From Sinohyriopsis cumingii (lineage: Eukaryota; Mollusca; Bivalvia; Unionida; Unionidae): 64,000 bases of DNA. Location of the stretch: contig CM068831.1 in assembly GCA_028554795.2 (NCBI GenBank), positions 32,228,644-32,292,643 of the forward strand, given 5' to 3'. The notes under the pieces are model-generated. The model was not told the origin of the DNA. It searched no databases and saw only the letters and a program-made list of their open reading frames with translations. A program made the translations under genes and the position numbers. Shown here piece after piece: positions 35,537-54,160 of the stretch (within the stretch, counting starts at the first letter, position 1; the number at the start of each line of letters is the position of its first letter).

Positions 35537-35579
35537 GTCTATCTCTTTTCGAGAAATGTGGGTGGCCCTGAAAAGGGCC
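35537..35579 (-). promoter_or_regulatory. Histone-type 3' stem-loop cassette, unit 1
   Basis: On the minus strand, 15 nt beyond the stop codon of the 35595-35825 gene, is GGCCCTTTTCAGGGCC (35564-35579): a 6-bp stem with a TTTC loop. It is followed by ACCCACA and a purine-rich CGAAAAGAGATAG. This matches the metazoan replication-dependent histone mRNA 3' stem-loop, the downstream ACCCA and a U7-binding histone downstream element. It lies inside the TIR, so its sequence is maintained at both ends of the element. Confidence 0.8.
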
Positions 35580-35594
35580 TTTGCGTTTCTTCTT

Positions 35595-35825
35595 CTAATT
35601 TCTTCTATTTCTCCACCAGCTTCTTATTTTCTGTCCTACACTTTTTCTCTTCTTTTCTTTCTTTTCTTCCTCCTTTTTCTCTTCTTTCTGCTTCTCCTCC
35701 TCTTCTTTCTTCCTCTTCTCATTTTCTTCTTCTTTTTCAATTTTTTCGTTCCATTCTCTCATCCTTATCCTTTCCTCTTCATCCTCCTTCTCCTCCTTTA
35801 TTTCTTTCATCAGAGCACTGATCAT
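35595..35825 (-). CDS. Small charged coiled-coil protein, unit 1
   Basis: The product is 76 residues, almost entirely Glu/Lys/Arg coiled coil (residues ~8-60), with a basic end KIRSWWRNRRN. I recognise no function. It is the first of three related transcription units at the left end: the promoter cassette is at 36019-36042 and the histone-type stem-loop lies 15 nt past the stop. Just upstream, 35861-35932 holds a separate short open frame (MKTLQEILDNLGMMEA). It resembles the helical N-termini of the sister proteins but is out of frame, so the gene may be frameshifted and the true start may be at 35932. The charged repetitive frame alone would not prove coding; the shared flanks are the better evidence. 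Confidence 0.55.
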   Translation of the reverse strand: MISALMKEIKEEKEDEEERIRMREWNEKIEKEEENEKRKKEEEEKQKEEKKEEEKKEKKRKSVGQKIRSWWRNRRN

Positions 35826-36006
35826 GTAAATTGTTGATCTCCATCTTCACTCGATGGGGACTATAAGAATAGTGATCCTCGTTTAGCCTCCATCATACCC
35901 AAATTGTCCAGGATTTCTTGCAATGTTTTCATTTTATCAAGTTGGTTTGAAGCTATCTTCTTTTTTATTCTCTGTAGAATGGTTTGAACGACGAATACTG
36001 TGGGTT

Positions 36007-36042
36007 CTTATACGAAAAGCGCGGACGTGATGGAAAACATCC
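36007..36042 (-). promoter_or_regulatory. Left-end promoter cassette, unit 1
   Basis: The plus strand reads GCGCGGACGTGATGGAAAAC (36019 onward), so for the minus-strand gene it is a GTTTTCC..TCACGTCCGCGC element followed 5-12 nt later by a TATA-like CGTATAAG (36007-36014). A second, weaker copy is at 36089-36111. The same element precedes units 2 and 3. Confidence 0.65.
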
Positions 36043-36134
36043 CCCTAAAGCCCAAAAGTTATATTACCTAGATCATCTCTTAAAACGTGCGCACGTGAAG
36101 GAAAACATTCCCTACTTTTCTCATTTCATATGAT

Positions 36135-36285
36135 CTACTATCCACATACCTTAATCAACAATAAACAAACCCAAAATCTACTATCCACACACGCAAAACA
36201 TTAAAATCAAACCCCAAATTTACTATCCACACAAACCAACTTAAGCTTTTACATAACCCAATAATCTACTATCCACACAAAGGTA
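36135..36285. repeat. Iterated CTACTATCCACACA motif, block 1
   Basis: Copies begin near 36135, 36178, 36221 and 36266, spaced 43-45 bp, each with (C/T)TACTATCCACA. A second block is at about 37004, 37040 and 37091. The blocks lie upstream of units 1 and 2, so they may be enhancer-like. A (CA)11 tract follows at about 36299-36320. Confidence 0.7.
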
Positions 36286-36379
36286 CGTGATCGCTTACAC
36301 ACACACACACACACACACACGGAAAAAAGAGTCAGTGTTTATATTCACACTACTCTACATACACACATTGGCAAATCGA

Positions 36380-36423
36380 TTGTTATTTCTTTTCTAAAGG
36401 TTTGGGTAGCCCTGAAAAGGGCT
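36380..36423 (-). promoter_or_regulatory. Histone-type 3' stem-loop cassette, unit 2
   Basis: On the minus strand AGCCCTTTTCAGGGCT (36408-36423) forms the same 6-bp stem and TTTC loop, followed by ACCCA and then AGAAAAGAAATAAC. The outer stem pair is A-T instead of G-C, a compensatory change that keeps pairing. The stem lies 28 nt past the stop of the 36452-36808 gene. Confidence 0.8.
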
Positions 36424-36451
36424 GTTTGTTTTTGAACTCCATGGCACCTGG

Positions 36452-36808
36452 TTAATGATGGCACCTTCCAGGCCTGGCACCACACACACATCTTCTTCCC
36501 CAGTCTCTTTTCACTCTTTTTGGGGGGAGAGCAGAGGCGGGATAAGTGGCTTCAGAATCCCAATTTTCTGTCTCTGGGATTCTGAAATTTCCTCTCTCTT
36601 TTTCTTCCTCTTCTTTGTTTCTTCTCTCCTCTTCTTCTTTGTTTCTTCTCTCCTCCTCTTCTTTGTTTCTTCTCTCCTCCTCTTTCAATCTTCCCTCTTC
36701 TACTATGGCCTCTGCAGCCAGCTCATTCACTATACGCCTGGCATATTCCAGGTGTACATGAAGTTCAAGCAGTTTTGCTAGTCTGGTGTTCATTCTGGTG
36801 TTGATCAA
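36452..36808 (-). CDS. Charged coiled-coil protein, unit 2
   Basis: The product is 118 residues. An N-terminal helix (residues ~7-28, with TRLAKLLELHVHLEYARRIV) resembles the unit 3 N-terminus. It is followed by Glu/Arg-rich repeats of EEERRNKE (residues ~42-70) and a C-terminal segment with CVCGARPGRCHH. The function is unknown. The promoter cassette plus TATA (minus strand TATAAATT at 36843-36850) lie about 35 nt upstream of the start, and the histone-type stem-loop lies downstream. The frame is intact. Confidence 0.7.
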   Translation of the reverse strand: MINTRMNTRLAKLLELHVHLEYARRIVNELAAEAIVEEGRLKEEERRNKEEEERRNKEEEERRNKEEEEKERGNFRIPETENWDSEATYPASALPPKRVKRDWGRRCVCGARPGRCHH

Positions 36809-36842
36809 TCAACAAGGGTAGCTAGACTGCCGAGTGATTTTC

Positions 36843-36880
36843 AATTTATAGTGAAAGCGCGGACGTGAAGGAAAACATCC
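36843..36880 (-). promoter_or_regulatory. Left-end promoter cassette, unit 2
   Basis: GCGCGGACGTGAAGGAAAAC begins at 36857 on the plus strand and a minus-strand TATAAATT lies at 36843-36850. A degenerate second copy is at 36922-36945, about 65 bp further upstream. Confidence 0.7.
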
Positions 36881-37182
36881 ACTAAAACAAACTTGATATT
36901 ACCTGGATCATGACCAAACAACGCACGGACCTAAAAGAAACATTCACTGACTTTTTTATACTACCCATTACTAATTTAAAAATTTTCATTACGCACTTCA
37001 ATATACTATCCACATACGCAAAGCAATCAAACCCCAAATCTACTCTCCCCACACGTCAAACACCAAAAAAAAAAAAAACATGATCTTAATCTACTATCCA
37101 CACAAACGTACGTGAGCACTATAAAAAAGAGAGTGAGTGTTTATATTCACACTACTCTACATACACACATTGGCAAATGGAT

Positions 37183-37226
37183 TGTTATTTCTTTTCTAGA
37201 GTATTGGGGTAGCCCTGAAAAGGGCT
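37183..37226 (-). promoter_or_regulatory. Histone-type 3' stem-loop cassette, unit 3
   Basis: AGCCCTTTTCAGGGCT on the minus strand (37211-37226) is followed by ACCCCA and AGAAAAGAAATAAC. The stem begins 13 nt past the stop of the 37240-37635 gene. About 50 bp downstream of it (to ~37134) is nearly identical to the corresponding unit 2 sequence (36335-36384), showing the units arose by an ~803-bp tandem duplication. Confidence 0.8.
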
Positions 37227-37239
37227 GTTTTTTTGTTTG

Positions 37240-37635
37240 CTATGGCAATCTTTTAGTTTCTAAGAATGCGACGTCCTCTGACGATAACTTTCTGACGATA
37301 GGTCTGCTTCTTCGGAAAGAGAAGAAGAACTCTTTGGTGTCGATACGACAATCGACAAAGCCTCTGTCAGCTTCAGGTTGTTGCTGCTGTTGCTGCTGTT
37401 GCTGCTCTCTCTGCTGTTTCTGAAGTCTGTACTTCTCTGTCCATTCTTCTTTCTCCATGTTCACTTCTTCTCTGAAGAGCTCTTCTATCAGGTCTTCAGT
37501 GACTTTTAGCATTCTCACATTCTCTATCTCTTCTGGCTTCGGTATCAGACTGTGTCTCACCCTATGCAAATTCACGTAGGCTTCGTTTAGCTTAGCTAGT
37601 TTGGAGCACATCTTCGTAGGAGGATGAGTCGACAA
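37240..37635 (-). CDS. Q-rich coiled-coil protein, unit 3
   Basis: The product is 131 residues. An N-terminal helix (KMCSKLAKLNEAYVNLHRVRH, residues ~8-29) is shared with unit 2. An acidic middle leads to a poly-Gln run (residues ~80-90), then a basic tail with FRRSRPIVRKLSSEDVAF. I recognise no function. It has the full promoter cassette, with a weak TATA-like TTTAAAT at 37664-37670, and the histone-type 3' cassette. The frame is intact and this is the most conserved-looking of the three sister genes. Confidence 0.75.
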   Translation of the reverse strand: MSTHPPTKMCSKLAKLNEAYVNLHRVRHSLIPKPEEIENVRMLKVTEDLIEELFREEVNMEKEEWTEKYRLQKQQREQQQQQQQQQPEADRGFVDCRIDTKEFFFSFRRSRPIVRKLSSEDVAFLETKRLP

Positions 37636-37663
37636 TGGATGGTTAGACTGGAGGCTACCCCGG

Positions 37664-37700
37664 ATTTAAAGTCAGAGCGCGGACGTGAAGGAAAACATCC
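37664..37700 (-). promoter_or_regulatory. Left-end promoter cassette, unit 3
   Basis: GCGCGGACGTGAAGGAAAAC starts at 37677 on the plus strand. A minus-strand TTTAAAT lies between it and the gene, which starts 28 nt further on. Confidence 0.65.
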
Positions 37701-37828
37701 CTCCACGGTTTTCGAGCCGGAACGTTCAATGAGTGTCATGAGAGGGATAGTAAGAAGTCAAAGAGCATGAATCAAGATTTCTATTGTCAAACAAACCACA
37801 AAGGCATTTTTTTCAAAACACAACATTT

Positions 37829-37834
37829 TTTATT
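37829..37834 (-). terminator. Polyadenylation signal after the protease gene
   Basis: A minus-strand AATAAA lies about 105 nt beyond the protease stop in an A/T-rich 3' flank. It marks the probable end of the capsid/protease transcript and contrasts with the stem-loop ends of the neighbouring units. Confidence 0.6.
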
Positions 37835-37937
37835 CAAAATCACATAACACTAACAAACAACTCTAAGATTTTTTAACAATAATCCAACAATATAACATCA
37901 AACATTTTGTTTCAAATGACAAACATTTTTTTCCAAC

Positions 37938-38656
37938 TCACACATTATTTTGGACAGGGCTGACAACGTTGTGAAGAAATTGCGATTTCCACTGTTGGAA
38001 GTCATTAGGCCGTTTCCCAGCTTGAGACAAAAGATAAGCATAATGGTCACAAAACCATTGATCTACTTTCACATCGTTTCTAGAAGAAGAACGAGGATCA
38101 AAATGAGTCACTAAATGTTCTAAGGAATAACCCAGACTGCGATGATGCAGAAAATACACACAGTACTGTCCACACACCAAGGAATCTGTGCCTTGTAATT
38201 TCACATTATTGAATCGGGTGGTCTGAGCATTTCTTCTCATAAAGTCAATGATATCGTCTTCCAAAGGGGGCAATCCATACGAATCAAAATATTCCACACA
38301 TCTTTCTTGAGGAAAGTAGACGGCTACCAGTGGGTTCCTGGGAGATGACTGTCGTCCGTGTTGATCACATAAACTAGATGGTCTTGAGGTTTGCGATGAG
38401 GTAGTTCATCTTCAGCACAGACGACAGGATTCCAAGAAGCCGTGTACGAACTGTGGTTCAAAAGGTAATAAGTTCCCAGGTATCCATGTTTTGTGTGTTT
38501 TTTTTTCTTCTTCACAGGTAATAATAAGTCATCAATTCGATCCTGACTTTTTGCTTGAAAATGTCTGACAAATAACCGTTTCTTCGCTTCGTCTCCACAC
38601 TCTGATTCAGGAGAGCTTCGATACGATGGATCTCTTGAGTGGTTAATGGTGGACAA
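37938..38656 (-). pseudogene. Adenain-like cysteine protease, frameshifted
   Basis: This is the maturation protease of Polintons, related to adenovirus proteinase. The catalytic His lies in the motif GTHW near 38330, the acidic residue in YFDSYG near 38270, and the catalytic Cys in CGQYCVYFL near 38150. The frame carrying the His ends at TAG at 38324-38326, directly after GTHW. The rest continues in a different frame to the stop at 37938, which means a one-base loss at that point. The start is uncertain because no ATG precedes the conserved YLGTYYLLN segment in frame; the gene overlaps the 38512-39015 gene. This break should inactivate the enzyme if it is real rather than a consensus error. 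Confidence 0.85.
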
Positions 38657-39015
38657 GAATGTTCACGCAAGTCTTTATACCACTGATGTAACACGACTTC
38701 GTCCGAGATGAGACTCCAAGCTTCGTCCAGATACTCGTTCAATTTTTCTTCTTGACTTAACATCAGACATTTGTCGTGTTGAATTTGACTGGTATGATCG
38801 TTTTGACATCCATAGCAATCTTTCTTGATCAATTCCGTCATTTTTTCGACCAAGTGTTTGGCAAAACAGGGGACTAAATGGGCTTCTTGTTCTGGCCATC
38901 TTGACTTCATCATGATAACTTCTTCGTCTTTGTCTTGAGATTCTTCTTCCCCGGTCTCCTCACATTCCATTTTCAAAGTTTCTCCACTAGGTAAAGAGGG
39001 ATAACAGTCTTCCAT
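38512..39015 (-). CDS. Conserved Polinton protein with Cys/His motif
   Basis: The product is 167 residues and starts at the ATG at 39013-39015, six bases after the capsid gene's stop. The acidic N-terminus (residues ~15-35) leads to a C-x2-C-x3-H-x5-H-x2-C cluster (CYGCQNDHTSQIQHDKC, residues ~67-83) that looks like a zinc-binding site. The C-terminal half is helical. I do not know its function. Its position between capsid and protease suggests a virion or assembly role. The open frame is intact, and its last ~50 codons overlap the protease reading frame. Confidence 0.7.
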   Translation of the reverse strand: MEDCYPSLPSGETLKMECEETGEEESQDKDEEVIMMKSRWPEQEAHLVPCFAKHLVEKMTELIKKDCYGCQNDHTSQIQHDKCLMLSQEEKLNEYLDEAWSLISDEVVLHQWYKDLREHSCPPLTTQEIHRIEALLNQSVETKRRNGYLSDIFKQKVRIELMTYYYL

Positions 39016-39020
39016 GGCTT

Positions 39021-40345
39021 CTAATAGTCTAGAATGACTTCTCTCAAACTTTTGATTTCTGTGGTATTGTCAAATTCTGCATACAGGATGACGTTCACTG
39101 TGTGATCTGGAGGTGGATTTGCAAACTGAAGTTCCACACGAATCTGACCGGATTTTATAGGGTGGAAATGTCCCTCGTCGCTGCCTTGGTCTGGAGTGAA
39201 ATCAAAACCCCACAAAGCGTAGCCTCTGCATAATCGTCGTACGAAATACCGTGACTGGTGTTGGTTCCTAACTGTCCGGTGGCTTCGTACAGGGACAAGT
39301 ACGATCTCAAATAATTCTTCGCGACACCAACGTTCGGCTCAAAGGGTCGGGTACACAAGGTCTTGCCGTCGCGACTGACTTCGATCTTGGACACATTGTA
39401 ATGTTGAAACTCAAAAGGATTTTGATCGTGGGTTCCGTTGAAGGCTGAATTCCTGACGATACCAACAATCAAACGCTTGGGTAACTGTCCTTGGAACAGA
39501 TGATTTTCGATCATAGATCGCTCTCTAGCGGGAATGGTGAACGTTTTCACTTCTATGCGTCGTATCGGATACTTGGCGGTCGTTCTGCTCAACGTCTGAC
39601 TGACGTCGTTTCCCACTTTAGGTAACACTTCCACACGACGCACGTAAAGTCGGGCTTCTTGAATGATAGTTTTGTATTCATTGGCATGGGCCATCAAATG
39701 GAAAGCGGCACTGCTACGATTCAGTCTCAGACGGATATCCACCCCGTTCAGCAAATACTTTTCTTGTAACCACATGTCCAAATGCAAACGATCCATCAGT
39801 TCTAAACTTCGCCCTTGCAGAATTTTCTTACGACGGCCGTTAAACCCCACACTGTGAAGATTTTCGTCTTCTGTCAGGACTGTGTCGTTAAACGTGCCTA
39901 CACCTACCGTGTCAGGTTTCCATACCACGCAAGCATCCAGATGAGTATTCTTGGCTTCTTTTCCGTACGTCAAGAGATTTTCCAGGTAGGCATGATATGG
40001 GTAAGTATCCATGCTGCTGCTGACCAGTTTGTTATTCAAGTACAAGTCCACTTTGCTGAACTAGGAATGCATGAAATTGTTGACAGGAGCTACTCTAGCA
40101 TCGCCTCCTGGATTGGTGATGTCCGTTTTGATCACTTTCACTTTCAAGTACAGGTAACTGCTATTCAGATCGATGTAATCTTCGGGCTGTCCTTTGATTT
40201 CAAACTCGATGGGAGCGGAATCCGTCAAAGAGGAGACCGGATGAAATTCCACCCACTGGGATTCTTGCATGGTCATCAAGGTGGGGGGCATGGCAAACAG
40301 ATCCAGTTCCGACTTGGAACAAGCGCAAGACTCTCGGTGCATCAT
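39021..40345 (-). pseudogene. Major capsid protein (double jelly-roll), broken
   Basis: This is the Polinton hexon-like capsid protein, about 440 codons. Recognisable segments are DYIDLNSSYLYLKVKVI near residue 55-70, PVNNFMHS at residue 87-94, then DLYLNNKLV and PYHAYLENLLTYG, and a C-terminal WGFDFTPDQG and YAEFDN region. It has two lesions. An in-frame TAG at codon 95 (40061-40063) truncates it. A frame change near 39210-39225, consistent with a 2-base insertion since the whole length is 3n+2, separates the last ~65 codons. It starts 14 nt after the preceding basic protein's stop. No capsid would be made from this copy as it stands. Confidence 0.92.
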
Positions 40346-40358
40346 TTTTTTCTCTTTC

Positions 40359-40784
40359 TCAATAATCGAAAACGTCTAAGTCTCGAACGGTTCTTCTTTT
40401 CTTTGCCTTTCTAGCTTTAGACGTGTGAAGTCTGGTGAAAGGGTGTTTTCTTCGTCGTCTCTTTCTGCCTTGTCCTTGCTGAATGCCTGACTCGGTAGCG
40501 TGCAGGGCATTTATAGGTGTGTCTCGTCGGCCCAAAAGGTCTTTGCCCGTTTGCAGCAAGACATTTTTGCCTGCCCTCATGAAGGCTTCTTTAGGATTTT
40601 GTTTGTCGATGATGACATTTTGGAGAAATTCTTTGCCTTGTGTCAGTGCCGCATCTTTCAAGGCGTGCAATCCGCGTGTCACCATCGGTTTCAACACCGG
40701 GGCCACCGAACGAAAGGCCGATTTTAACATATCTCCTAAACCGTGTCCTCGCTGTCGTGCAACCCCTCGGTACACTGGATACAT
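40359..40784 (-). CDS. Basic virion-core-like protein
   Basis: The product is 141 residues, strongly basic and intact. The N-terminus (YRGVARQRGHGLGDMLKSAF) leads to an amphipathic helical region, and the C-terminus has GRKRRRRKH and KARKAKKRR clusters. By position (between penton and hexon) and composition it resembles the adenovirus pVI/pX class of minor virion proteins, which bind DNA or disrupt membranes and are cut by the viral protease. Homology is not proven. It ends 14 nt before the capsid start and begins 3 nt after the penton stop. Confidence 0.75.
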   Translation of the reverse strand: MYPVYRGVARQRGHGLGDMLKSAFRSVAPVLKPMVTRGLHALKDAALTQGKEFLQNVIIDKQNPKEAFMRAGKNVLLQTGKDLLGRRDTPINALHATESGIQQGQGRKRRRRKHPFTRLHTSKARKAKKRRTVRDLDVFDY

Positions 40785-40787
40785 GAC

Positions 40788-41720
40788 TTACGAGTCGTGA
40801 GAGAACCGTTTTCGAAAATGGAGTTTGACCGTGACTTTTCCTTTGGTGAATGGAATATTTTGTCCCAGGTCTCCTTTTATAGCAATGTTGACCGTGTCCA
40901 AATACGACTTGCTGACAGGCAAATAGTGAGGATGTACAAATTCGCGGTGAACGTGGTAAGTGTTTCCACTTTCCTCGTCAGTGACCGTGGCAGAATCCAC
41001 TTTGAAAGGAATGACACGCAGTAACGGCACAGAGGTGTGTCCCACCACGTTATACTCAACCACATCGGAGTACACAAACATCAAATTCAGTCCTTGGTTC
41101 AGTTCTACCGGGGCACGAAATAACTTGCTAAAAGACTCGTTGTCGTAAATGATTGGTAATTCGTTTTTCTTGAGCATGGCCTTTCTTATGTCCATGTCTC
41201 CGCCCAACATGTCAAACAATTCAGGACAAAATAAAATGGACACGATTTTACCCCCGTCAAATTTCATCAAGAAGCGACGAGCTGCTTTGTGGTATTCCAT
41301 GGTGACACTTTTTTTGACACTTTCCAAAGCTTTCAGAAACACGACATTAAACCTGGAGGTTATGGTGCTCACCAAATGTTGACCACTAAAATAATAGCCT
41401 GGGGGAACGAACAAGTGATAGGTGGTGTACTTTTGACTTTTTGTGCCAGGGGTTTTCTTGTCATATTTGCCATAGGTATCCAAGTACTGTTGCAATTGTT
41501 CGTCATAAACTTCCACATCAAAAAAATTTTGATGTGGAAGGACATTGAGGACTTGAGTCGGGTGAATGATTTCTACTAAAGCCACTTCCTAATGGGCTTC
41601 GTGGTCTAGTGTGATGGTCTGAGGTAATTTGGCCGTGTAACAGCACAACGTGTTCTTGGGAAACACCTCCATGGAACTGTCACTGGGTAAGGTTAAGTAA
41701 AATTGGTTTTGGTGACTCAT
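40788..41720 (-). pseudogene. Penton (single jelly-roll minor capsid protein), one nonsense codon
   Basis: The gene has 311 codons from ATG at 41718-41720. The opening MSHQNQFYLTLPSDSS is the conserved Polinton penton N-terminus, and later segments include ITSRF, FDGGKI and a PLLRVIPF strand near the C-terminus. An in-frame TAG at codon 44 (41589-41591) lies where related proteins usually have Trp, so one G-to-A change would explain it. Apart from that the frame is open. The start overlaps the stop of the membrane-protein gene by ATGA. Confidence 0.9.
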
Positions 41721-42130
41721 AATTCCAGAGTTCTGTGGCTGTCCGAGGGGTTACTGGACGTCAGAGGCGTGTCTCCGCCCAAAATGGGGTTGTTGTTGTT
41801 GTTATTGGAGTGGTGACTGACACTGGCACTGGACACAAGGTTCCCGTGGTTCCCGTTGGAAGAGAATTTCAGGGAGGGATTGGGAAGCAGGTAACCGATG
41901 TAACTGCTCAATAAAATGGTCCACAATTGTTTGTCTCCTTGTTGCAAACTTAAATTGACGATGGCTGCCCCGATGACACAATGCACCACGAAGATTTGGC
42001 AGAAAAAGACGATTTGTGTTTTAGGCACACGTTCTCCACACCACACCCACAAAGGTTGTTTTTGTAAATCTTGCAGAGAAGAACTAGGTGAAGGAGTGGT
42101 CGACGTAGCTGCGTCTGTATGAAAGGGCAT
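41717..42130 (-). CDS. Two-helix membrane protein, Polinton-conserved type
   Basis: The product is about 137 residues from the ATG at 42128-42130. A short Ser/Thr/Pro-rich N-terminus is followed by a first hydrophobic helix (about residues 38-60, IVFFCQIFVVHCVIGAAIV) and a second (about residues 70-86, LWTILLSSYIGYLLPNP), then a low-complexity tail with a poly-Asn run. Proteins with this layout sit beside the penton in many invertebrate Polintons; their role is unknown. The gene is intact and overlaps the penton start (ATGA). It lies only 5 nt after the integrase stop. Confidence 0.75.
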   Translation of the reverse strand: MPFHTDAATSTTPSPSSSLQDLQKQPLWVWCGERVPKTQIVFFCQIFVVHCVIGAAIVNLSLQQGDKQLWTILLSSYIGYLLPNPSLKFSSNGNHGNLVSSASVSHHSNNNNNNPILGGDTPLTSSNPSDSHRTLEL

Positions 42131-42135
42131 GATGG

Positions 42136-43245
42136 TCACTTCTTTTTATAGTCGATGACTTGCGAAGCGTCAATCCAAGAATCAAAACTGGGTGGATATC
42201 CTTTCCAGCGTACTTTGACTTCTTTGACACGTCGTTTGCCCACTTTACGGGTTCTGCGTTCGAGAATGCTTTCGATGTCGTACATGTCGTCTTCTTTTTT
42301 GGTGACACGTTGTAACTCGGGTAAGTAAAACGTTCCTTTGAGCACTTCTCCGTTCATGTCTTCCAATTTATAGACGGCAGGATGACGGCCATGCACTCGT
42401 CCAGTGACACGAAACAATTCGGTCGTCCAGCTAGGTAAGTAACCTTTGTCGAAAGTGCGTTTGGTTTTGCCAATGCGTACCCAATCTCCTACGGTCAACA
42501 CTCCACTTTTCTTGGGGGCAGCCCTCGTCGGGGACGTACCAAACAGGCGCTCAAACACCAGCACTTCGTTCTTGGGAGTCACTTCTTGCGGGGCACGTCC
42601 GATGCTTCGATGGTAAGATTGGTTGTACGCTTGCACCAGGTGCGGTAAGATGTCGATGTACTTCAGAGTGTGGTGATGCGTAAAATATTTCCACATATGT
42701 TCTTTCAATGTGCGTTAAAAACGTTCCACGATGCTGGCTTTGGTTTCGGGATTCTCGGTGGTAAAAAAATGAATGTCACGTTTCTTTAATTCTTTTTGGA
42801 AAGCTTGGTTCAGAAATTCGGTGCCTTTGTCCGTTTGCCATCGAAGAGGGTGACGACCGCTTTGTTTCAACACTCGTTGCAGGGCTCGCACTAACTCGCT
42901 GCTCGATTTGGAAGTCAAGGGTACGACCCAGGCAAATTTGGAAAAGACGTCGATGACACAAAACAAATATTTGTAGCCACGACTGTAGCTGGCCAAATGA
43001 GAGACATCGGCTAAATCGGCTTGCCATTGATGATCGATGCCTTCCACTTGGGTGCGACTTCTGGCAAACTTGCGTCGAATGGGTTTGTGTGAAGTGTAGG
43101 TAGCTTGTTCTTGTAACCATCGTTGCACTTGAGGTAAACGGAGACTTTTCGGTCGCATTTTGGCAGCACGATACAATTTTTGAACTCCTGCGTAACCTGC
43201 AGGATGCGAGGGATCGTAGTAAATGCTGGCTAAGACTTTTTCCAT
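42136..43245 (-). pseudogene. RVE-type integrase with chromodomain, one nonsense codon
   Basis: The gene has about 369 codons from ATG at 43243-43245. The catalytic triad residues are Asp77 (WQADLAD), Asp139 (WQTDKGTEF) and Glu174 (SIVERF). An in-frame TAA at 42715-42717 comes two codons after the catalytic Glu-Arg-Phe. The C-terminal half still has the SH3-like region (GDWVRIGK) and a chromodomain (YDIESILERR and VRWKGYPPSFDSW), as in Polinton and chromovirus integrases. Chromodomains bind histone tails and can direct insertion. The enzyme joins element ends to host DNA, giving the 6-bp duplication seen. The nonsense codon would remove the C-terminal domain. Confidence 0.93.
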
Positions 43246-43259
43246 TTTGTGTTTGTGTG

Positions 43260-43889: not shown

Positions 43890-43938
43890 AGGGTTGTCAG
43901 GGGTAGATTCTGAGATCTTGGGACTTCCGAGGGCCTTT

Positions 43939-46073: not shown

Positions 46074-46133
46074 AGTGTCAGGAATGTCACTTGTGACACG
46101 AAAACAAACAAGACGATAGTTTATATACTTTTT

Positions 46134-46490: not shown

Positions 46491-46710
46491 ACTCGGCCAC
46501 TTCTTGGGTCCAAGCCTCAAAACCCCCCTTTTTCCAGTCACGAACATCTGTCCAGTGGGGGTGTAAGTCACAAGCTACACACACATCGTCATACACGTCT
46601 TCGGTAGCTAAAAGTTGACGAATCTTTTTTTCCCGTTGAGGTCGAGAAGTATCCAGATGAAAACGCAAGGCTTTGAGCAAAAGGAGTCTTTCGTGACCAT
46701 TTAAGGCCAT
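46369..46710 (-). CDS. Helical hypothetical protein B
   Basis: The frame is about 113 residues from the ATG at 46708-46710, starting inside the last codons of the 46701-46925 gene. It is predicted to be mostly helical (ERLLLLKALRFHL, then QREKKIRQLL), with a Trp-containing stretch HPHWTDVRDWKKGGFEAW. No family is recognised. Together with gene A it could form one helical-bundle protein split by a frameshift. Its place next to a BIR-domain gene makes an apoptosis-related helical fold conceivable, but no motif supports that. Confidence 0.45.
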   Translation of the reverse strand: MALNGHERLLLLKALRFHLDTSRPQREKKIRQLLATEDVYDDVCVACDLHPHWTDVRDWKKGGFEAWTQEVAEYARELFKEKSYFSTCVSDSARRTSPREQPLASGQDCHGHS

Positions 46711-46925
46711 TGAGGTGGTAAGTACTGATCGTAAAGAGTCCACAAGGAATCGGCTGGTAAACGAAATCCCAGAAAACAAGTCACTAAGACACACACCACT
46801 TGTCGACCCAAATTGAATGGATACAGTTCTTGTAATAATCGATGGTAATGATCCACGGTTTGAATAGGGTCATTGAGTTCCTTCCATGGAATCTGTTCAA
46901 TTACATGTGACATAAGTCGTGGCAT
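46701..46925 (-). CDS. Helical hypothetical protein A
   Basis: The frame is 74 residues, with MSHVIEQIPWKELNDP followed by alternating amphipathic helices (DHYHRLLQELYPF, RQVVCVLVTCFLGF). No family is recognised. It overlaps protein B by 10 nt. Between this gene and the BIR gene (46926-47061) there is an open stretch with acidic coding-like text (EEETRLARSEMLD) out of frame with both. Confidence 0.45.
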   Translation of the reverse strand: MPRLMSHVIEQIPWKELNDPIQTVDHYHRLLQELYPFNLGRQVVCVLVTCFLGFRLPADSLWTLYDQYLPPQWP

Positions 46926-47061
46926 GGCAGCCTGTTTTCATAGTCTCTTTGTTTCGGAAACAATACACGTACTTTCAAGCCAGAGATCTTCGTTCTCGGT
47001 GATGTCCAACATTTCACTCCTAGCCAGTCTGGTTTCTTCTTCAACGACATGGTAAGTTACT

Positions 47062-47697
47062 TCAATGTCTCGGTCCCACTAAGGGTAAGTAATGACAATT
47101 CGGTGACCATCGAGCATGTTCTAGGTAGGCCGAATCTTGCGGTTCCCAGTGGTGAAGTGACACACCGCAACTGAAGCACTTGACTTTATCCCTTTCACCC
47201 AAGTAGTAAAATCCGGCTCTGGCTAATTCTTCGGGGGTCGGTCCTCCCAGATACTTAGGCCATTTTCCTTTGAACGATTGAAGACGATTTTCAAAGTCGC
47301 AGTATTCCGACAAACGCACACGAAACGAATATTCGTCTTTCACAGGTTCGTTTCGATGAGGGTTGGGTGACATAGACAGGAGTTTGCTCAGGGCTGGATG
47401 ACATCCGTAGGGGGGTAGACGTGAAGGTGGATATTCATCTTTAAAACGAAACCCAGTAAAGTGTCCAAGAGGACAAGCGGCATCGCTTTCGCATCCCTCA
47501 GGTTTGGCACGCACAGCATCACTTTCCATGATACGGGCAGGGAAAACAAAGTTCCCATGATGCTTTACGGCATCGCTAAGGTCACAGCGTACAGCATCGT
47601 TCCCATCGCAAGGCTCACAATCGCATTCCACTTCAGAAGCCCCACACTTGAATTGTGCCTTTCTAAATTTGTTTTGTGTTTCTCTGAAAGTATTCAT
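47062..47697 (-). CDS. BIR-domain (IAP-like) protein
   Basis: The product is 211 residues with an intact frame from the ATG at 47695-47697. The C-terminal BIR domain spans residues ~130-206: it opens ENRLQSFKGKWP, has a GFYYLG turn, and carries the zinc ligands in CFSCGVSLHHW, H of YLEHARW and C of SPNCHYL. BIR domains bind caspases or other apoptosis and immune proteins. The N-terminal ~90 residues are Cys/Asp-rich with short SDAVR repeats and no known fold. A TATA box (minus strand GTATATAAAAAGG, about 47751-47764) lies inside the last codons of the polymerase gene, giving it its own promoter. There is no RING domain. The role, such as delaying host cell death, is inferred from the family only. 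Confidence 0.9.
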   Translation of the reverse strand: MNTFRETQNKFRKAQFKCGASEVECDCEPCDGNDAVRCDLSDAVKHHGNFVFPARIMESDAVRAKPEGCESDAACPLGHFTGFRFKDEYPPSRLPPYGCHPALSKLLSMSPNPHRNEPVKDEYSFRVRLSEYCDFENRLQSFKGKWPKYLGGPTPEELARAGFYYLGERDKVKCFSCGVSLHHWEPQDSAYLEHARWSPNCHYLPLVGPRH

Positions 47698-47729
47698 CTT
47701 GTTCGCTTGGTCTTGGTAGTCACAATGAA

Positions 47730-50700
47730 CTATCGATCTTGCCTAGGGTTCCTTTTTATATACAGACCAATACCGACGTATCCATACGGTAAGGTGAAAT
47801 GATTGGGCAGTCTTATTCGCTTCTGGTACACGATTTGATAGACTTTTTCCAAGGGTCGACTGACGATGTGGTGAGTGGGTAAACGTACAATCTTGTTGGG
47901 TTGATAGGTGGTCACTTTAAAATGTTGATCTTTTCCAGACTGCAAAGCTTCTTTCAGTACCCCAAAGTTGACCACTCGACTGGTACGATAATTCAGAGTC
48001 AATCCTTTCACTTTACACGTCGTGTGCTCTTCTCCTTGTTTGTCCCGGTATTCGTAGCCGTAATTTTTAGGACCGCCACTGGCGAAACTTAGAATCTTGT
48101 CGTCGGGATGCTCGTCTGTCCAGGCTCCTAAACGGTCTCCTTCGATGTCAGGGTGCTGTTGACTCGGGTGATGGATGTAAATGCATCTATCCGTGTCAAA
48201 ATACAGGACACGTTCCCCTAACAGTTCTAAAGCTTCGTACAATTTTAAGCGAGCATGGGCTGTCACGTAAGCCGCAATGATTAAATTTCCAAAGGGATCG
48301 TCTTGTACAAAGTCCACATCTTCTTCGTAATTCACTAAGACCAAATCCTCGCGAACGACGTCCACGTGTTTCATGTATTTGGTTTTGTCGTGAATCATCT
48401 GGAAGTAGCGGGAAGGTTCTGTCAAATATTCCGTCTTGGGTAAACACGGTCGTTGTGCCATTTTTCCCCACAAGCAATTTAACATCACTTTGGCAAACGA
48501 TCGCCTGCCTTCGTTTTTCTCGATGTGGTCTAAATGGATGCCTTCTTGTGCCCAGTACTTCTCTTTGAATGTCTTTTGGTCTTCGGGAGTGTGACACCAG
48601 GACGGATAGCCTCTGGCTTCTTGCTCCAGTTTCAAAAAGGCATCCACGTAGTCGGCGAAAATGCCTTTCTGAGTGGGGTCACCCTTGTGATATTGTTCTG
48701 TCTTGGGAAAGTGACAAATTTCGTACACTTGTAACAGTTGATATCCCATGTCCAGAGCTTTGAACAATTCTACGCTGACCCACGTCCTCGTCAAGGCCCG
48801 TTCTTCCTGGGTGTGATGGCAAGGTTTGGTTGCACGTTTCGGCACAAGTACGACACAAAGGAAACATCAATTTGCCTTGGCAATGGTGAGGTAACACAGG
48901 ATGGTACAAGTCCGTGGGAGGCAAAACTTTACATTTGATCAGACCTTCGTATTGTCGAATGTTTTTCACTTCGATGTGTTCCGTCAACAATTGTGGGTGC
49001 CCTACAGGAAAGCGACAATATTTGCACACGTAGGGATACAGCGAACACACGTCCAAGTATTTAATTTCTTCTCCTTTCTCTTCGTCGGCTTGGTACAGCA
49101 AACAGGTGGCATTGGTCCTTCCTCCGTACAAACTATCCCTCGGATTCAGCGGGTCTATGAACTGGTAACTTTCCACGAGGCGTTTAAACTCGGGATCGGT
49201 TTTCAAACGGTGATCGTACTCGTGTTCCCACATTTCCACCACTTGGTATCCTTCCTGTTCTAAATTTAGGCGTCGCTGACAAGTGGCCTGGTACAAGTCT
49301 TCCATGGTTCGTTGTAAAAACTGATTTTTAGTACCGCGGTCAGGGTAGCAGACGGGACATCCGTGAAATAAGCAACCGTTAAACTCGTACACGATCTTGG
49401 GGTTTTCTAAGTCCCAGCCATCGACCGAAAGCGTTCCGATGGTCTTTTCACCTCCTCCGTTGCGGGCATGCTAAATCCATTTGTCTTCCTTGTCGCACAA
49501 GTAATGTAACCAGCGTAGGGCTTTGACCGAGTAGTGACGTTTGACATAGTTGGTCGTTTGAGGACTGATGACAGCCACGGTGTTTTCAGGCATGAATGGT
49601 TGTCGGTACACTACGAAACACGCTTTGGCAATGGTGCAAGCTTCTTTCAAAGGATCGACCCCTCCGTGCTCCATGAACAGTTCTCGAAATTTTCCACAGC
49701 ATCGCCGTAAAATGTCCACATCGGAACGACAATACTTTAGCATTTCTTCCTGAAAGTCGAAAGGGTCGGAGGCGTGAGCCTGGTACCAAGCGTAGAAAGC
49801 TTCTCGATGTTCGGTACGCATGTTGTCGGGGTCGTAATAGTGAGCCTCAGGCAAATGGGGTAGAACGGCGTGTTTATTGGCCTCGGTATTGAAAAAGTGT
49901 GGAAAGTACCCTTTAGCCATTTCTGTCATTCCAAACGTTTTAGGCATTCGACTCATAGGCATGGCTAAGTAACTCATCGAATCTTTAAACTGCACTTGTC
50001 CCACTTGCATGAAAATGATTTTGGCTCCGTTCAAAGTGACTTTAGGACGTTCGGTGCCATGTTCCGTATAGTACCTCAAAAGAAACTGTCCATCGTATCC
50101 GGAGAAATTGTGAGCCATCACTGTGGCATGACGATGACAATCTCCGTAACGTTCGATGTCCTCTTGGCTCCACGTCTTGTCGATGGGGTCTAAGACCCAT
50201 TGGGCAAAATCGGCTAGCGTGTTCTGTCCTCGAAAGATCTTTTCACGCCCTCCAGGAATCTTGCTGCAGTGAGGGCAATGACTGAAGATAGGTTCTTGAA
50301 TACACTTGTCGCACGCTCGATGAGCCACGCAGAAATTAGGAATGTGAATACCGGTCTCCTGCATGCATTCGAAATCGAAAAAGATGAAATTGCCTTTCTT
50401 CTTGTGTCCATCCTCTTTCTCTGGTGGGGATTGGTATTTTTGCACGTAGCATTGGTGTTCCAAGTCCACGATGTGGTGACAAATGTGACATTTTTTCTTT
50501 CCTGAACATACGTGTGCCTTGGCACTTTTGGTACGTATGCCTTGTCCACACGTAGGCCACAATCTCAGCAGTTGACAAGCGCATTTCTTCTGTGAACCTT
50601 GCGTCTTCAGATGTTGTTGGTAACAGGCAGGGCTGACAAACGTGCCCAGACAAGTTGAACAATGCACTGGTTCTTACCCTTCGTTCAGACAGGGTGGAGA

Positions 50701-51793
50701 GGCCAAACATCTTGAGCATTTCGATCCACAATGCTTGTGTTGCTCTCGATTGTTATAGCCATAGTCACATTTCTCACAGCAATAACCGTATCCCAGGAAT
50801 CCAGTGATACTGGTAATGGTATCGAAATAGACATCGTGATGATAGACATGAATGTATTTTCCGTCCTTAAAGTATTTCCCTCGAAACAACAGAGGCCCAC
50901 GCATTTCTTGAGGATGCACTTTCAAGGTGTATCGTGGAGCTAGGGCATCTTGCAATTTTTGCATCTCAGGAATGCCACAGGGTGTATCTTTGGGCAAGCC
51001 AGCTTGTTGTAACAGGAGTTCTGCTTCGTTTCGTTGTTTGGCTCGGTCCGATTGTCGAATAGTTTTCCAGGCTCTTTTAAATTCTGCCGTGTCGTTCTTA
51101 TCGGCATAGGTTCGTCCCACCACGATGGCCCTGGCTAAACACATCTGGTCTTCAGGGTTGTGAATTCGGACGAGACTCTTTTTGGTGCTGCGAAGCTCGT
51201 CCACCAATAACATCTTTTTGCGTTCATTCCCTTGAGGAGGAGAGACGTGGGTCATGTCCACTGTGGCTTTTCCATCGGTGATGTCAAACTGGTCATTGGA
51301 TTGTTGTACGTGTTGAATTTTGTCCATGACTTTGGAAGCGGTCAATTCTGCAGGGTTGCTAAACTCGATCCAAACAGGGGATTTCAAACCGTCGTGTTGT
51401 ATGGAAAGTCTCAAGCGATCGTCTTCTTTGGGTTGACATTGTCGCTTGAGTGTGGTGAGTAAAGAATCCCACACCCCGGTGATGAACCCTTCTGCTTTCT
51501 CCAACGGTACTTCGGACTTGAAAATCTTTAAACTTCACCGTGTATTTGTAAGCCGTGGTTCTAAATTTTCTAGAGGAGCGCTTTTCCATCTCTCGAATGT
51601 CATAGGACTTTTCAGGGTTAACTAAGGGTGGTGAACTTGGTTTAGAGGGTTTGGATTCTGGTTCACTCATGTCCTCTTCAAAATCACTGGCATGAATTTG
51701 TGCCAAGACTTCAGCTCTGGTACGAGGCGATGGATCACGTTTCTGCCTCTTACTTTCTTCGTCTTTCTTCTCAAATGAATTGGATCGTTTCAT
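47730..51793 (-). pseudogene. Protein-primed family B DNA polymerase, multiply broken
   Basis: The gene has about 1,354 codons from the ATG at 51791-51793 to the stop at 47730. The N-terminus is basic/Ser-rich, followed by a region with paired Cys (CEKCDYGY and CSRC). Exonuclease motifs are FDFECMQET (Exo I), HNFSGYDGQFLL (Exo II) and YCRSDVDIL (Exo III). Polymerase motifs are LDVCSLYPYVCKY (A), KVMLNCLWGKMA (B) and YFDTDRCIY (C). It has four lesions: a frame change near 51505-51530, an in-frame TAA at 50674-50676, an in-frame TAG at 49471-49473 (a CAG-to-TAG change would explain it), and a frame change near 48815-48845. The active-site motifs remain readable. The protein would copy the element from a protein primer at the TIRs. 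Confidence 0.95.
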
Positions 51794-51840
51794 CTTGAGT
51801 GCAAAACGTCAAATGACTCAAGTTTAAACACCACAGACTA

Positions 51841-51875
51841 ATTTATAGTTCTGGCAGACCAGCGTATATAAAAGG
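51841..51875. promoter_or_regulatory. Divergent TATA promoters: polymerase and zinc-knuckle genes
   Basis: A minus-strand ACTATAAAT (plus-strand 51841-51849) lies 48 nt before the polymerase ATG. A plus-strand GTATATAAAAGG (51864-51875) lies 53 nt before the zinc-knuckle ATG at 51928. The two TATA boxes are only ~15 bp apart, so the genes share one compact bidirectional promoter. Confidence 0.8.
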
Positions 51876-51927
51876 GTATGTGTCTTGTCCTTTCACTATT
51901 CATTTCACTCTCAAACCGAGCACAACG

Positions 51928-52368
51928 ATGGAAGAGACTACCCAAATCGAACATTTCATCAGAGCGTTGCGAGGGGTCATTAGAAAATTTTCTTCAGACC
52001 AGCCGACGGACTACTCTCCTTCCTTTCGAGATAAAAGTCAAGGTACTTGCTATATCTGTCAGAAGAAAGGGCACTGGTCTTCAGAGTGTCCAGACCGTCA
52101 AAAAAGAAAAAAAGGGGTTAAAAGAGACAAAAGTCAAGATACCTGTTATTATTGTCAAGAAAAAGGACATTGGTCTCCAGATTGCCCAAAAAAGAAACAA
52201 GAGGAGTCAGAAGAAGAGAGGGATTCTTCAGAGGAAGAAGAAGAGGAGGAAGAAAGCAGACAGGTGAAGAAAAAGAAACAGGAGAAGAAAAGAAGAAGGG
52301 AAGAAAGTGAGGAAGAAGAGGAGGAAAAGACTGTGACGGTGAAGAAATTCAAAAAACAGAGAGACTAA
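51928..52368 (+). CDS. CCHC zinc-knuckle protein
   Basis: The product is 146 residues from the ATG at 51928-51930, in the context CACAACGATGG. Two retroviral-type zinc knuckles are present: CYICQKKGHWSSEC (residues ~47-60) and CYYCQEKGHWSPDC (residues ~80-93). Each is C-x2-C-x4-H-x4-C and follows a KSQ(G/D)TC repeat. The C-terminal ~50 residues alternate Glu and Lys runs. Such domains bind single-stranded nucleic acid. A Gag-like knuckle in a Polinton is unusual and could serve packaging or replication; that is inference. AATAAA at 52450-52455 gives a poly(A) signal. The frame is intact. Confidence 0.85.
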   Translation: MEETTQIEHFIRALRGVIRKFSSDQPTDYSPSFRDKSQGTCYICQKKGHWSSECPDRQKRKKGVKRDKSQDTCYYCQEKGHWSPDCPKKKQEESEEERDSSEEEEEEEESRQVKKKKQEKKRRREESEEEEEEKTVTVKKFKKQRD

Positions 52369-52766
52369 AGAATGAGACAGAAGAAGTCTATGAACTTTTT
52401 AAAGTGCTCTGTTGTGAATTGTGAATTGGATTGTAACTATTGATAAAAGAATAAATTAGGTATAAAAAGGTAAGTGTCTTTGATTTTAAAATAAGAACGT
52501 ACACTCACACATTCATACAAACGTACTATAGGGGTAAAATGTTTTTTTTTGTTTTGTTTTGTTTTTTTGAGTTATTGGCAATTGAAAGTCTATCTCTTTT
52601 CTAGAGATGTGGGCCTTTGGTTTTTGGTGTAGGGGTGAGTTTAAGCAATCAACTTTAACTGCCTTAAGCCTTTGCCACGGCCGAGGCCTACTTCTGATGA
52701 TGATGATTGGGTTGAAATCACTAAGGGTGGTACGGTAGGCTTAGTCACAGGGTTGGCGTGTTTAGC
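52369..52766. other. Intergenic region with a cassette remnant
   Basis: It contains the poly(A) signal of the zinc-knuckle gene (52450-52455) and a T-rich tract (about 52545-52570). It also holds the remnant histone-type cassette at 52577-52620. A plus-strand CAATTGAAAGTCTATCTCTT stretch is identical to the inner part of the left TIR. Confidence 0.6.
52577..52620 (-). promoter_or_regulatory. Histone-type cassette with its stem-loop deleted
   Basis: On the minus strand AAAGGCCC is followed directly by ACATCTCTAGAAAAGAGATAG. Compared with unit 1, exactly the bases from the loop through the 3' stem and ACC are missing, about 15 bp, between two CCC trinucleotides. This suggests a microhomology deletion. 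The purine-rich element remains. The site lies about 150 nt past the stop of the 52767-53192 gene, in sense. Confidence 0.7.
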
Positions 52767-53192
52767 TCAGGAAGGTCGTATTCTCTTCGGTCGTGAGAAA
52801 GAAGTCTGATACATTTGTTTCAGACTTCTTAACTCCGCTAAAATGTCTAACAGTACCATGACCGTTTGATTTTCACCCTCTTGTTTCTTTGCTGCTGCTT
52901 CTTTTGTTGTTGTTGTTTTTTTTCTTACCTCTTCTTGCTGTTGTTGCTGTAAAAGAAAATCTTGTTCCGCTTCCTTTTGTCGTTGTATAAATTTCTCCAA
53001 TTCTTCTTTCTGTCTCTGTCTAAAATTCTCCACGTGTGGTAATGAAGGTGACGAAGGTTCCGGAACAAATTCTTGCGAGGTAAGAAACTCCACAAAATCC
53101 CAATATACCTCTTCTGAAAGTAAGTCCGGGTTCCCTTGTGTAGTCTCCACTGCTGGTGCACCCCAATGGATCGTTTTCTGAGTTTCCGTCAT
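52767..53192 (-). CDS. Q-rich coiled-coil protein
   Basis: The product is 141 residues with an intact frame from the ATG at 53190-53192. An acidic/Trp-containing N-terminus (EEVYWDFVEFLTSQEF, residues ~27-42) leads to a long coiled coil (residues ~55-110: RQKEELEKFIQRQKEAE, then poly-Gln and TTTTKEAAAKK). A short Leu-rich helix follows (MVLLDILAELRSL) and then a basic end (SRPKRIRPS). The function is unknown. In style it resembles the left-end unit 3 protein. The TATA box is TCTATATAGA (53241-53250), and the promoter carries CACGTG/TGACGTCA. Confidence 0.7.
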   Translation of the reverse strand: MTETQKTIHWGAPAVETTQGNPDLLSEEVYWDFVEFLTSQEFVPEPSSPSLPHVENFRQRQKEELEKFIQRQKEAEQDFLLQQQQQEEVRKKTTTTKEAAAKKQEGENQTVMVLLDILAELRSLKQMYQTSFSRPKRIRPS

Positions 53193-53240
53193 GTTGAATC
53201 ACTGTCTCGCATCGATTGACTGCACACAGGCGGTAGCGAA

Positions 53241-53263
53241 TCTATATAGACCACGTGACGTCA
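53241..53263 (-). promoter_or_regulatory. Promoter with TATA, E-box and CRE
   Basis: A palindromic TATA (TCTATATAGA, 53241-53250) is immediately preceded in the minus-strand direction by CACGTG (53252-53257), which overlaps TGACGTCA (53256-53263). These are consensus E-box and cAMP-response elements. The left-end promoters also carry an ACGT core (TCACGTCC) beside their TATA. Confidence 0.65.
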
Positions 53264-53360
53264 CAGACTGTTCTCTTCGGATTGGATGCGAGCTGACTGA
53301 ATTTTGTAACGCGTGTTTGGATTGGTCAATGAACTCAATCCGTTTCAATCCTTCCTCTAC

Positions 53361-53372
53361 CTATAAATAAGC
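53361..53372 (+). promoter_or_regulatory. TATA box of the right-end small gene
   Basis: CTATAAATAAG lies about 45 nt before the ATG at 53414. A CCAAT-like ATTGGTCAAT lies at about 53323-53332. The 53193-53413 interval serves as a divergent promoter with the coiled-coil gene. Confidence 0.6.
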
Positions 53373-53413
53373 GCAGTTCACTGCATTGATTTACCTGTTT
53401 TCGTCGCCTCAGC

Positions 53414-53644
53414 ATGTGGACTGACGTTGAATCTTCCACCCTTGTGTCAACAATGATGTTCAGGACGGACATGCTAATGTATGGCCGATCCAAGTGGACA
53501 GTTGTCCACAAGTCAGACACCAGTCTGTGGATACGAAGAGTGTATGTGGAAAGACAAGGATGCCTCAAGAGGACTCTAATTTATGGCCCTGCAGTAAGAC
53601 GCAGCTTGAGGACAAGAAGATGCCACAGATGCCCTTTATGTTAA
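53414..53644 (+). CDS. Small basic protein, right end
   Basis: The product is 76 residues, Arg/Cys-rich at its C-terminus (RRSLRTRRCHRCPLC), with Met/Thr-rich N-terminal text. I recognise no family. Support for a gene comes from the TATA box upstream and the histone-type stem-loop 23 nt past the stop. The gene ends just before the right TIR, mirroring unit 1 at the left end. Confidence 0.55.
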   Translation: MWTDVESSTLVSTMMFRTDMLMYGRSKWTVVHKSDTSLWIRRVYVERQGCLKRTLIYGPAVRRSLRTRRCHRCPLC

Positions 53645-53663
53645 GGGCATGTTAACATAAATC

Positions 53664-54160
53664 CAAAGGCACTTTTCAGGGCCACCCACACCTCTCGAAA
53701 AGAGATAGACTTTCAATTGCCTACCCTTTTTTATTTTTTTTTTATTTTAAAAAAAAATAGAGATCCTCCCTGTTTGAATTTTCGTATGTTCCCTTTTCAT
53801 AGACTCATCAGGTCGGAACCCTATTAAAATAGGGTCCCGACCCTGTTCCATTTTCCCTTGTCACTCAAGAGACCCAAGATTTTTTTTTCTATGTTCAATT
53901 CCCCTTAAGGCTAGAGTGACCCAAGACTTTTCCCCCATGTTCAATTCCCCTTGAGGCTAGAATGACCCAAGACTTTTTCCCCATGTTCAATTCCCCTTGA
54001 GGCTAGAGTGACCCAAGACTTTTTTCCCATGTTAAATTCCCCTTGAGGCTATATTGTCCCACGACTTTTCCCCATGTTAAATTTCCATTGAGGCTAAACG
54101 TTCCCAAGGGGTTCTGTAATGCTAATTCCCATTGAGGCTAATGTATCCCCATTCACTACT
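53664..54160 (-). repeat. Polinton terminal inverted repeat, right
   Basis: This is the inverted match of 35087-35583, also 497 bp, ending ...CACTACT at 54160. By eye it carries about 15-20 differences from the left copy, mostly in A runs and the subrepeats. Confidence 0.95.
53668..53710 (+). promoter_or_regulatory. Histone-type 3' stem-loop cassette, right end
   Basis: GGCACTTTTCAGGGCC (53668-53683) is followed by ACCCACA and CGAAAAGAGATAG on the plus strand, in sense for the 53414-53644 gene. One stem position is mismatched (A opposite G) compared with the perfect left-TIR copy, so pairing is weakened here. Confidence 0.75.

Follow-up and report, generated by a model that had tools for sequence, protein, structure and literature searches.

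Histone-type 3' signals behind the small terminal genes of a Polinton lineage in Sinohyriopsis cumingii

Introduction

Does a mobile DNA element end some of its own messages in the way that its host ends histone messages? The question is raised by a Polinton in a 64,000-nucleotide (nt) stretch of the genome of the bivalve Sinohyriopsis cumingii (contig CM068831.1, positions 32,228,644 to 32,292,643 of the forward strand), referred to below as the window. Three small genes at the left end of the element (units 1 to 3) and one at its right end are each followed, shortly past the stop codon, by a hairpin of the kind found at the 3' ends of animal replication-dependent histone mRNAs. Judged from sequence comparison, these are very probably histone-type 3' ends that are functional in the Polinton lineage and partly decayed in the copy carried by the window.

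Processing of histone mRNA 3' ends by SLBP and the U7 small nuclear ribonucleoprotein (snRNP) is well established. To our knowledge this type of 3' end is almost unused outside histones, and no mobile element or virus is known to us in which several genes bear it. Polintons, or Mavericks, are defined by a 6-bp target-site duplication (TSD), inverted repeats starting with AG, a protein-primed type-B DNA polymerase, an rve integrase and a double jelly-roll capsid protein, and likewise by a packaging ATPase and a cysteine protease. Excerpts of two papers (PMC9756948; PMC12775136) describe histone 3' signals as bound by SLBP and the U7 snRNP, giving non-polyadenylated S-phase mRNAs. A literature search, with subscription papers and bioRxiv outside its scope, yielded, among the papers listed, no report of a Polinton, Maverick, adintovirus or transposable element with a histone stem-loop or SLBP; in one adintovirus paper, mention of histones concerns histone-like proteins.

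Results

Stem-loop signals in the window

The sequence GCCCTTTTCAGGGC is found exactly in the three minus-strand hairpins, and the right-hand hairpin matches it with one mismatch, which breaks one stem pair. The stem-loop core has four matches as against a mean of 0.24 in shuffled sequence, with none of 100 shuffles reaching four, and in a search of 19.3 kb the Rfam model Histone3 (RF00032) matches all four signals, with E values from 8e-9 to 8.1e-5. On the 3' side of each hairpin lies ACCC(C)A and then a GAAAAGA element. A preliminary description of this DNA had placed a sense-strand hairpin 13-28 nt past the stop of four genes, and this is borne out by gaps of 15, 28, 13 and 23 nt with a Histone3 match at each. 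Its further statement, that hairpin, ACC(C)CA and purine element occur together at the four sites, stands as to the presence of every component, with the qualification that the right-hand copy has a broken pair.

The unit 1 and right-gene hairpins are copies of one terminal-repeat stretch and lie at the inward-facing edges of the terminal inverted repeats (TIRs), and units 2 and 3 share an 84-nt stretch directly beyond their hairpins that is 93% identical between them. In the terminal-repeat copies (35539-35553 and 53694-53708) the purine element also falls within a small predicted hairpin.

Agreement with the histone genes of the host

In the host genome (a 2.905-Gb assembly of 1138 contigs) PF00125 gives at least 150 scored histone matches, many of them in tandem units of about 8.3 kb. 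The one unit examined (L091; loci in the host genome carry L numbers) encodes H3, H4, H2B, H2A and H1, named by us from their translations. All five genes have a Histone3 hit of 35.0-39.4 bits, 27-38 nt past the stop, and a stem-loop of the form GGYCCTTTTHAGGRCC. The purine element behind them is CTAGAAAAGA in four genes and CCCGAAAAGG in H2A; that of the Polinton is CTAGAAAAGA at unit 3, TTAGAAAAGA at unit 2 and CTCGAAAAGA at unit 1, the right-hand gene and a fifth gene described below. GAAAAG begins 13-14 nt past the stem in all five host genes and in all five Polinton classes, the fifth gene being represented by L014. A matrix of the element and its flank, derived from the histone genes of L091, was compared with 2,000 shuffles: none matched the score of unit 1, unit 3, the right-hand gene or the fifth gene, and 11 matched or exceeded that of unit 2.

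We regard this comparison as decisive: in one host histone repeat, all five genes share with the Polinton both the kind of hairpin and an element of (C)TAGAAAAGA type that lies 13-14 nt past the stem. The comparison of the purine element with host histone genes, proposed at the outset, ends in agreement with the five L091 genes in both core sequence and spacing.

Searches were also made for the host U7 RNA. The model RF00066 had no match in the host genome and was equally silent in all 14 control genomes, and is hence uninformative. The pattern TCTTTN{2,14}AATTTGTCTAG had 87 matches in the host genome as against 129 for its control; none of the 20 inspected was judged to be U7, the 45 nt downstream folding at 0 to -10.4 kcal/mol, which falls short of proof. 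A second pattern, TCTTTTCTAGN{0,8}AATTTNTCT, had two matches as against four for its control, neither of them U7-like by eye.

Conservation among relatives in the same genome

The host genome has 75 scored Histone3 matches; the best 30 were examined as loci, and all 30 proved to lie in relatives of the window Polinton. These loci were selected by the hairpin itself, and all 75 scored matches, being the best candidates, lie over the cut-off of the model. Among the other genes within them, the hairpin is present behind 11 of 12 copies of unit 2, 4 of 4 of the right-hand gene and 1 of 2 of unit 1; in these counts, as in those for the fifth gene, gene copies near the end of a locus are left out and one broken pair is tolerated.

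A sample blind to the hairpin tells more than these loci: it consists of ten left ends adjoining a capsid gene, hand-picked across a list of 136 scored capsid matches. Rfam places 23 Histone3 hits in nine of the ten. Absence of the hairpin from related Polintons had been named in the preliminary description as a ground for giving up the idea; within this genome, 22 of the 23 blind unit-gene copies (nine of unit 3, seven of unit 2 and seven of unit 1, located by tblastn and coordinates) keep it behind the gene. L062 lacks both the unit genes and the hairpins, and L061 carries a single hairpin, with no gene detected ahead of it.

Within the blind sample, identity to the majority is 0.98-0.99 for the hairpin and 0.97-0.98 for the purine element, as against 0.86-0.97 for coding ends, 0.86-0.97 for the 40 nt upstream of the hairpin and 0.75-0.89 from +61 to +130 (L063, a partial match, is omitted for unit 1). 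The contrast between hairpin and flanks is clear in unit 2, smaller upstream of the unit 1 hairpin and slight in unit 3 (coding 0.974 versus hairpin 0.979), whose copies are mutually close. The unit 1 slot holds two protein types, the L068 type of 128 amino acids (aa) and the L017 type of 204 aa, with the same 3' signal behind both. By BLASTP the two align only across ten C-terminal residues (E 0.009) and a stretch of 13 residues (E 0.71). The slot (35595-35825; also in L017, L004 and L064) is one in which the protein differs between copies.

Stem pairing and abundance

In an alignment of 22 signals picked by us (5 host, 17 Polinton), 99.2% of 132 stem cells are paired, over a 6-bp stem closed by a 4-nt loop of UUUC type. 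The outer pair is G-C in 12 signals and A-U in 10, with none broken, so that the A-T for G-C swap noted earlier in units 2 and 3 does preserve pairing; host H1 has one compensated inner pair.

The pattern RGCCCTTTTMAGGGCYN{11,15}GAAAAGA has 53,880 exact matches (26,669 + 27,211) in the 2.9-Gb host genome, and its reversed control has none. A mismatched A..C outer pair is present in 330 (162 + 168) of these matches. Some are expected to be host histone genes, as the H2B gene of L091 fits the pattern. The first 100 sites listed, covering 3.1 Mb of one contig, include 11 complete five-signal sets in the order and orientation of the window element, together with 13 triplets of the left-end type and 17 divergent pairs separated by 1086-1124 bp. 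If every match sat in a five-signal element there would, by extrapolation, be about 10,800 elements, and so many signals suggest that this genome carries a very heavy load of Polintons. The 11 complete sets differ in the distance between unit 3 and the fifth-gene side: roughly half of them measure 13.3-14.0 kb and the others 16.5-18.1 kb (about 15.4 kb in the window), a spread that suggests size classes of the element.

Two classes of 3' end signal

The core gene array ends differently. Its AATAAA is kept in all 33 loci whose alignment covers the site; these represent 29 distinct copies, four of the loci being second cuts of the same copies, and include the window's own. No histone-type stem-loop was found within 300 nt of the core ORF (open reading frame) ends tested, and neither AATAAA nor ATTAAA within 300 nt of the stops of units 2 and 3. 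Elsewhere in the element, only 7 of 16 loci retain the AATAAA that follows the CCHC gene (52450), and ORF 46369, inside the core array, has AATAAA 220 nt past its end.

Each unit has one copy of a 23-bp upstream element, GATGTTTTCCWTCACGTCCGCGC; allowing up to three mismatches, the only other occurrence in the window is the extra copy at 36087. Its exact core was not seen in the host histone stretches inspected (70 nt only for H3). With an upstream element and a signal for each unit, and AATAAA at the end of the core array, the small genes resemble transcription units of one gene apiece that close in a histone end, and the core resembles a polyadenylated array.

A fifth gene

The fifth gene of the set lies on the minus strand near the right end. 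In the window copy a relic of its signal matches, at 95%, the terminal-repeat stretch that bears the unit 1 and right-gene signal. Homologues carry the signal in 13 of 15 copies from loci picked by another hairpin and in 3 of 3 where its own hairpin was picked. Between the fifth gene and the right-hand gene lies a divergent region of 221 bp (53193-53413) with TATA-like, CCAAT-type and CACGTG sites.

The fifth-gene protein has 19 relatives and that of unit 2 has one. Six small proteins from relatives, searched against Pfam up to E = 1, match no histone family and no family over its cut-off; the unit 1 protein of L068 has a weak TAF4 match (E 0.001, 19.3 bits, as against a cut-off of 33).

Identity of the element

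The element is a Polinton by its TSD, inverted repeats, polymerase, integrase and capsid fold. GTCGTA stands on both sides as a 6-bp target duplication, and the inverted repeats begin with AG. Pfam identifies the type-B DNA polymerase (PF03175, E 4.1e-16) on one piece, with a second piece at 2e-4, under the family cut-off; the polymerase is split over several ORFs in the window copy, as read with frames left unmended. The rve integrase is recognised by PF00665 (E 2e-14), and the end of the integrase at 42136-42696 (-) is chromodomain-like by eye. The capsid piece of the window is 87% identical to protein P0001 across 92% of its length. A structure model of P0001, with a mean predicted local distance difference test score (pLDDT) of 83, matches the capsids of iridovirus, PBCV-1, Sputnik and mavirus (best E 6.5e-16), so that this relative of the window piece has a predicted double jelly-roll capsid fold. 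For the ATPase and cysteine protease, the pieces at 45588-46073 and 37938-38240 have no Pfam family and could be named only by eye.

There are 275 relatives of the capsid protein. Among the 120 listed, those with animal names are from the oysters Crassostrea, Ostrea and Saccostrea, and one further relative is labelled as a Thiodiazotropha metagenome-assembled genome. In IMG/VR, searches with the polymerase, capsid and fifth-gene proteins yielded no relatives, nor did a capsid search of GTDB genomes. A first stem-loop pattern had no match in IMG/VR; a second matched two contigs, taken for chance because both matches fall inside ORFs, and nine contigs with bacterial record titles matched in GTDB and were also taken for chance.

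The element also encodes CCHC zinc knuckles (Pfam) and, at 47062-47697 (-), a BIR (inhibitor of apoptosis) domain gene (PF00653). Both TIRs hold 46-bp repeats in tandem (35151-35357 and 53871-54096). Outside the Polinton, two adjoining ORFs at 4265-5017 (+) are non-LTR (long terminal repeat) reverse transcriptase-like by eye. Coordinates are collected in Table 1.

Table 1. Positions in the window of the Polinton, its terminal genes and their candidate 3' signals
Feature	Position	Strand	Remarks
Unit 1 gene	35595..35825	-	ORF 76 aa here; 128-aa ORF in L067 and L068
Unit 1 histone-type stem-loop GGCCCTTTTCAGGGCC	35564..35579	-	15 nt past stop; RF00032 40.0 bits
Unit 1 downstream element CTCGAAAAGAGATAG	35539..35553	-	
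Unit 2 gene	36452..36793	-	113 aa
Unit 2 histone-type stem-loop AGCCCTTTTCAGGGCT	36408..36423	-	28 nt past stop; RF00032 31.1 bits
Unit 2 downstream element TTTAGAAAAGAAATA	36384..36398	-	
Unit 3 gene	37240..37611	-	123 aa
Unit 3 histone-type stem-loop AGCCCTTTTCAGGGCT	37211..37226	-	13 nt past stop; RF00032 29.3 bits
Unit 3 downstream element CTAGAAAAGAAATAA	37185..37199	-	
Right-hand small gene	53414..53644	+	76 aa; 77-aa relative in L014, calculated isoelectric point 11
Right gene histone-type stem-loop GGCACTTTTCAGGGCC	53668..53683	+	one broken pair; 23 nt past stop; RF00032 29.4 bits
Right gene downstream element CTCGAAAAGAGATAG	53694..53708	+	
Fifth gene	52767..53192	-	141 aa here; 183 aa in L014, 193 aa in L023
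Relic of fifth-gene signal	52577..52613	-	downstream element and flank retained, hairpin lost in window copy
AATAAA of core array	37829..37834	-	104 nt past last stop of core array, just ahead of unit 3 gene
Upstream element of unit 3 GATGTTTTCCTTCACGTCCGCGC	37677..37699	-	
Upstream element of unit 2	36857..36879	-	
Upstream element of unit 1	36019..36041	-	second copy, 3 mismatches, at 36087-36109
Polinton element	35087..54160	.	19,074 bp; ends AGTAGTGAATGGGG; TSD GTCGTA at 35081-35086 and 54161-54166
Left terminal inverted repeat	35087..35588	+	contains 46-bp tandem repeats
Right terminal inverted repeat	53659..54160	-	
Core gene array	37938..51793	-	polymerase pieces, BIR-domain gene, rve integrase piece, major capsid protein piece, other ORFs

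Discussion

What is observed directly is the signals, their sense position just past stop codons, the way in which diverged copies conserve them and the match to the histone signals of the host. The terminal-repeat copies, the fifth gene and the core-array AATAAA are new relative to the preliminary description. The mRNAs of the small genes are most likely histone-type, non-polyadenylated and linked to S phase through the host SLBP and U7 snRNP; from the signals we infer processing, absence of poly(A) and S-phase timing for these genes.

Several results weigh against histone-type ends that function. Only unit 1 of the four window signals exceeds the curated RF00032 cut-off of 34 bits, the other three lying at 29-31 bits, and in the blind sample 6 of 23 hits reach 34 bits, with the other 17 at 24.7-33. 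For the right-gene stem-loop, with its broken pair, 31 of 200 shuffles fold at least as well. The unit 1 and right-gene signals are one sequence by descent, and are not independent because both sit in the two inverted repeats, whose arms (35486-35588 and 53659-53761) are 91% complementary. The A-U outer pair of units 2 and 3 is probably a single inherited change, shared by descent, and the covariation rests on few events for that reason. The fifth-gene hairpin is gone from the window copy, one unit 3 copy of the blind sample (L064) has no hairpin, and four gene copies in the hairpin-selected loci have none. Support for a further AATTTTGCCA-like motif, located downstream of the purine element, is weak (19-150 of 2,000 shuffles), and the searches for the host U7 did not find it. 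Finally, ATTAAA occurs 170 nt past the unit 1 stop and 179 nt past the right-gene stop.

These two ATTAAA motifs would suit an alternative in which the stem-loop is used only in part, the transcripts being mainly polyadenylated downstream and the stem-loop serving stability or translation control; the excerpts of PMC9756948 describe a human H2A gene with both kinds of end. We consider this unlikely, as units 2 and 3 lack such motifs over the distance searched and the U7-type element is retained together with the hairpin. It is a good deal less probable that the signals were acquired from the histone genes of the host and now persist as functionless relics. Their close resemblance to host signals and the decay of the right-gene and fifth-gene signals in the window would fit such an origin, but the blind-sample hairpins stand at 0.98-0.99 identity against 0.75-0.97 for coding ends, the preceding 40 nt and stretches from +23 (slightly so in unit 3), different genes in the unit 1 slot retain the same signal, and the spacing from stem to purine element is kept. 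Least probable of all is that the terminal repeats hold the hairpin as a DNA element, a replication or integrase site that lies behind genes only since genes abut the repeats: the position of the unit 1 and right-gene hairpins at the inner edges of the repeats and the likeness of the fifth-gene relic to that stretch are in its favour, but units 2 and 3 carry the hairpin some 0.8-1.6 kb inside the repeat, all five signals are in sense just past stops, on both strands, and hairpin and purine element match host histone genes.

With histone-type ends as the preferred explanation, the lineage would make mRNAs of two classes, one from the long core array (polymerase, integrase, capsid), ending in an ordinary AATAAA, and one from the five small terminal genes, ending in the host histone signal. 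This signal consists of a stem of 6 bp, a loop of UUUC or UUUA and a flank resembling ACCCA, followed by (C)TAGAAAAGA or CTCGAAAAGA, with GAAAAG from 13-14 nt past the stem. The stem would be bound by host SLBP and the purine element paired by the U7 snRNP, and the histone cleavage complex would cut between the two. The mRNAs produced would be short, would lack poly(A), and would build up and be translated during S phase, presumably the best time of use for an element replicated in the nucleus. We think it probable that this is a mobile element or virus family whose mRNAs are split into two 3'-end classes, and which co-opts the host histone pathway, with a host-matched U7 site, in timing five genes to S phase.

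Such a system would give a concrete and testable answer to how a nuclear DNA element could couple the expression of its genes to S phase. It would also supply non-histone genes, as a natural set, for asking what the signal alone does. If the explanation is true, tens of thousands of sites per genome may also load the host supply of SLBP and U7, and mobile elements may outnumber histone genes as clients of both in this host.

Compared with Polintons or Mavericks and the related adintoviruses, the element has the same 6-bp TSD, AG-start repeats, type-B polymerase, rve integrase and double jelly-roll capsid fold, but differs in that the window lineage has histone-type 3' signals on five terminal genes. 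Compared with the 3' ends of animal replication-dependent histone mRNAs (SLBP, U7 snRNP, RF00032), the stem, loop, spacing and host-matching purine element are alike, whereas the Polinton genes are non-histone, as judged by Pfam for six small proteins, and are carried by a virus-like mobile element; units 2 and 3 differ further from the five host histone genes in their A-U outer pair, which is absent in those five.

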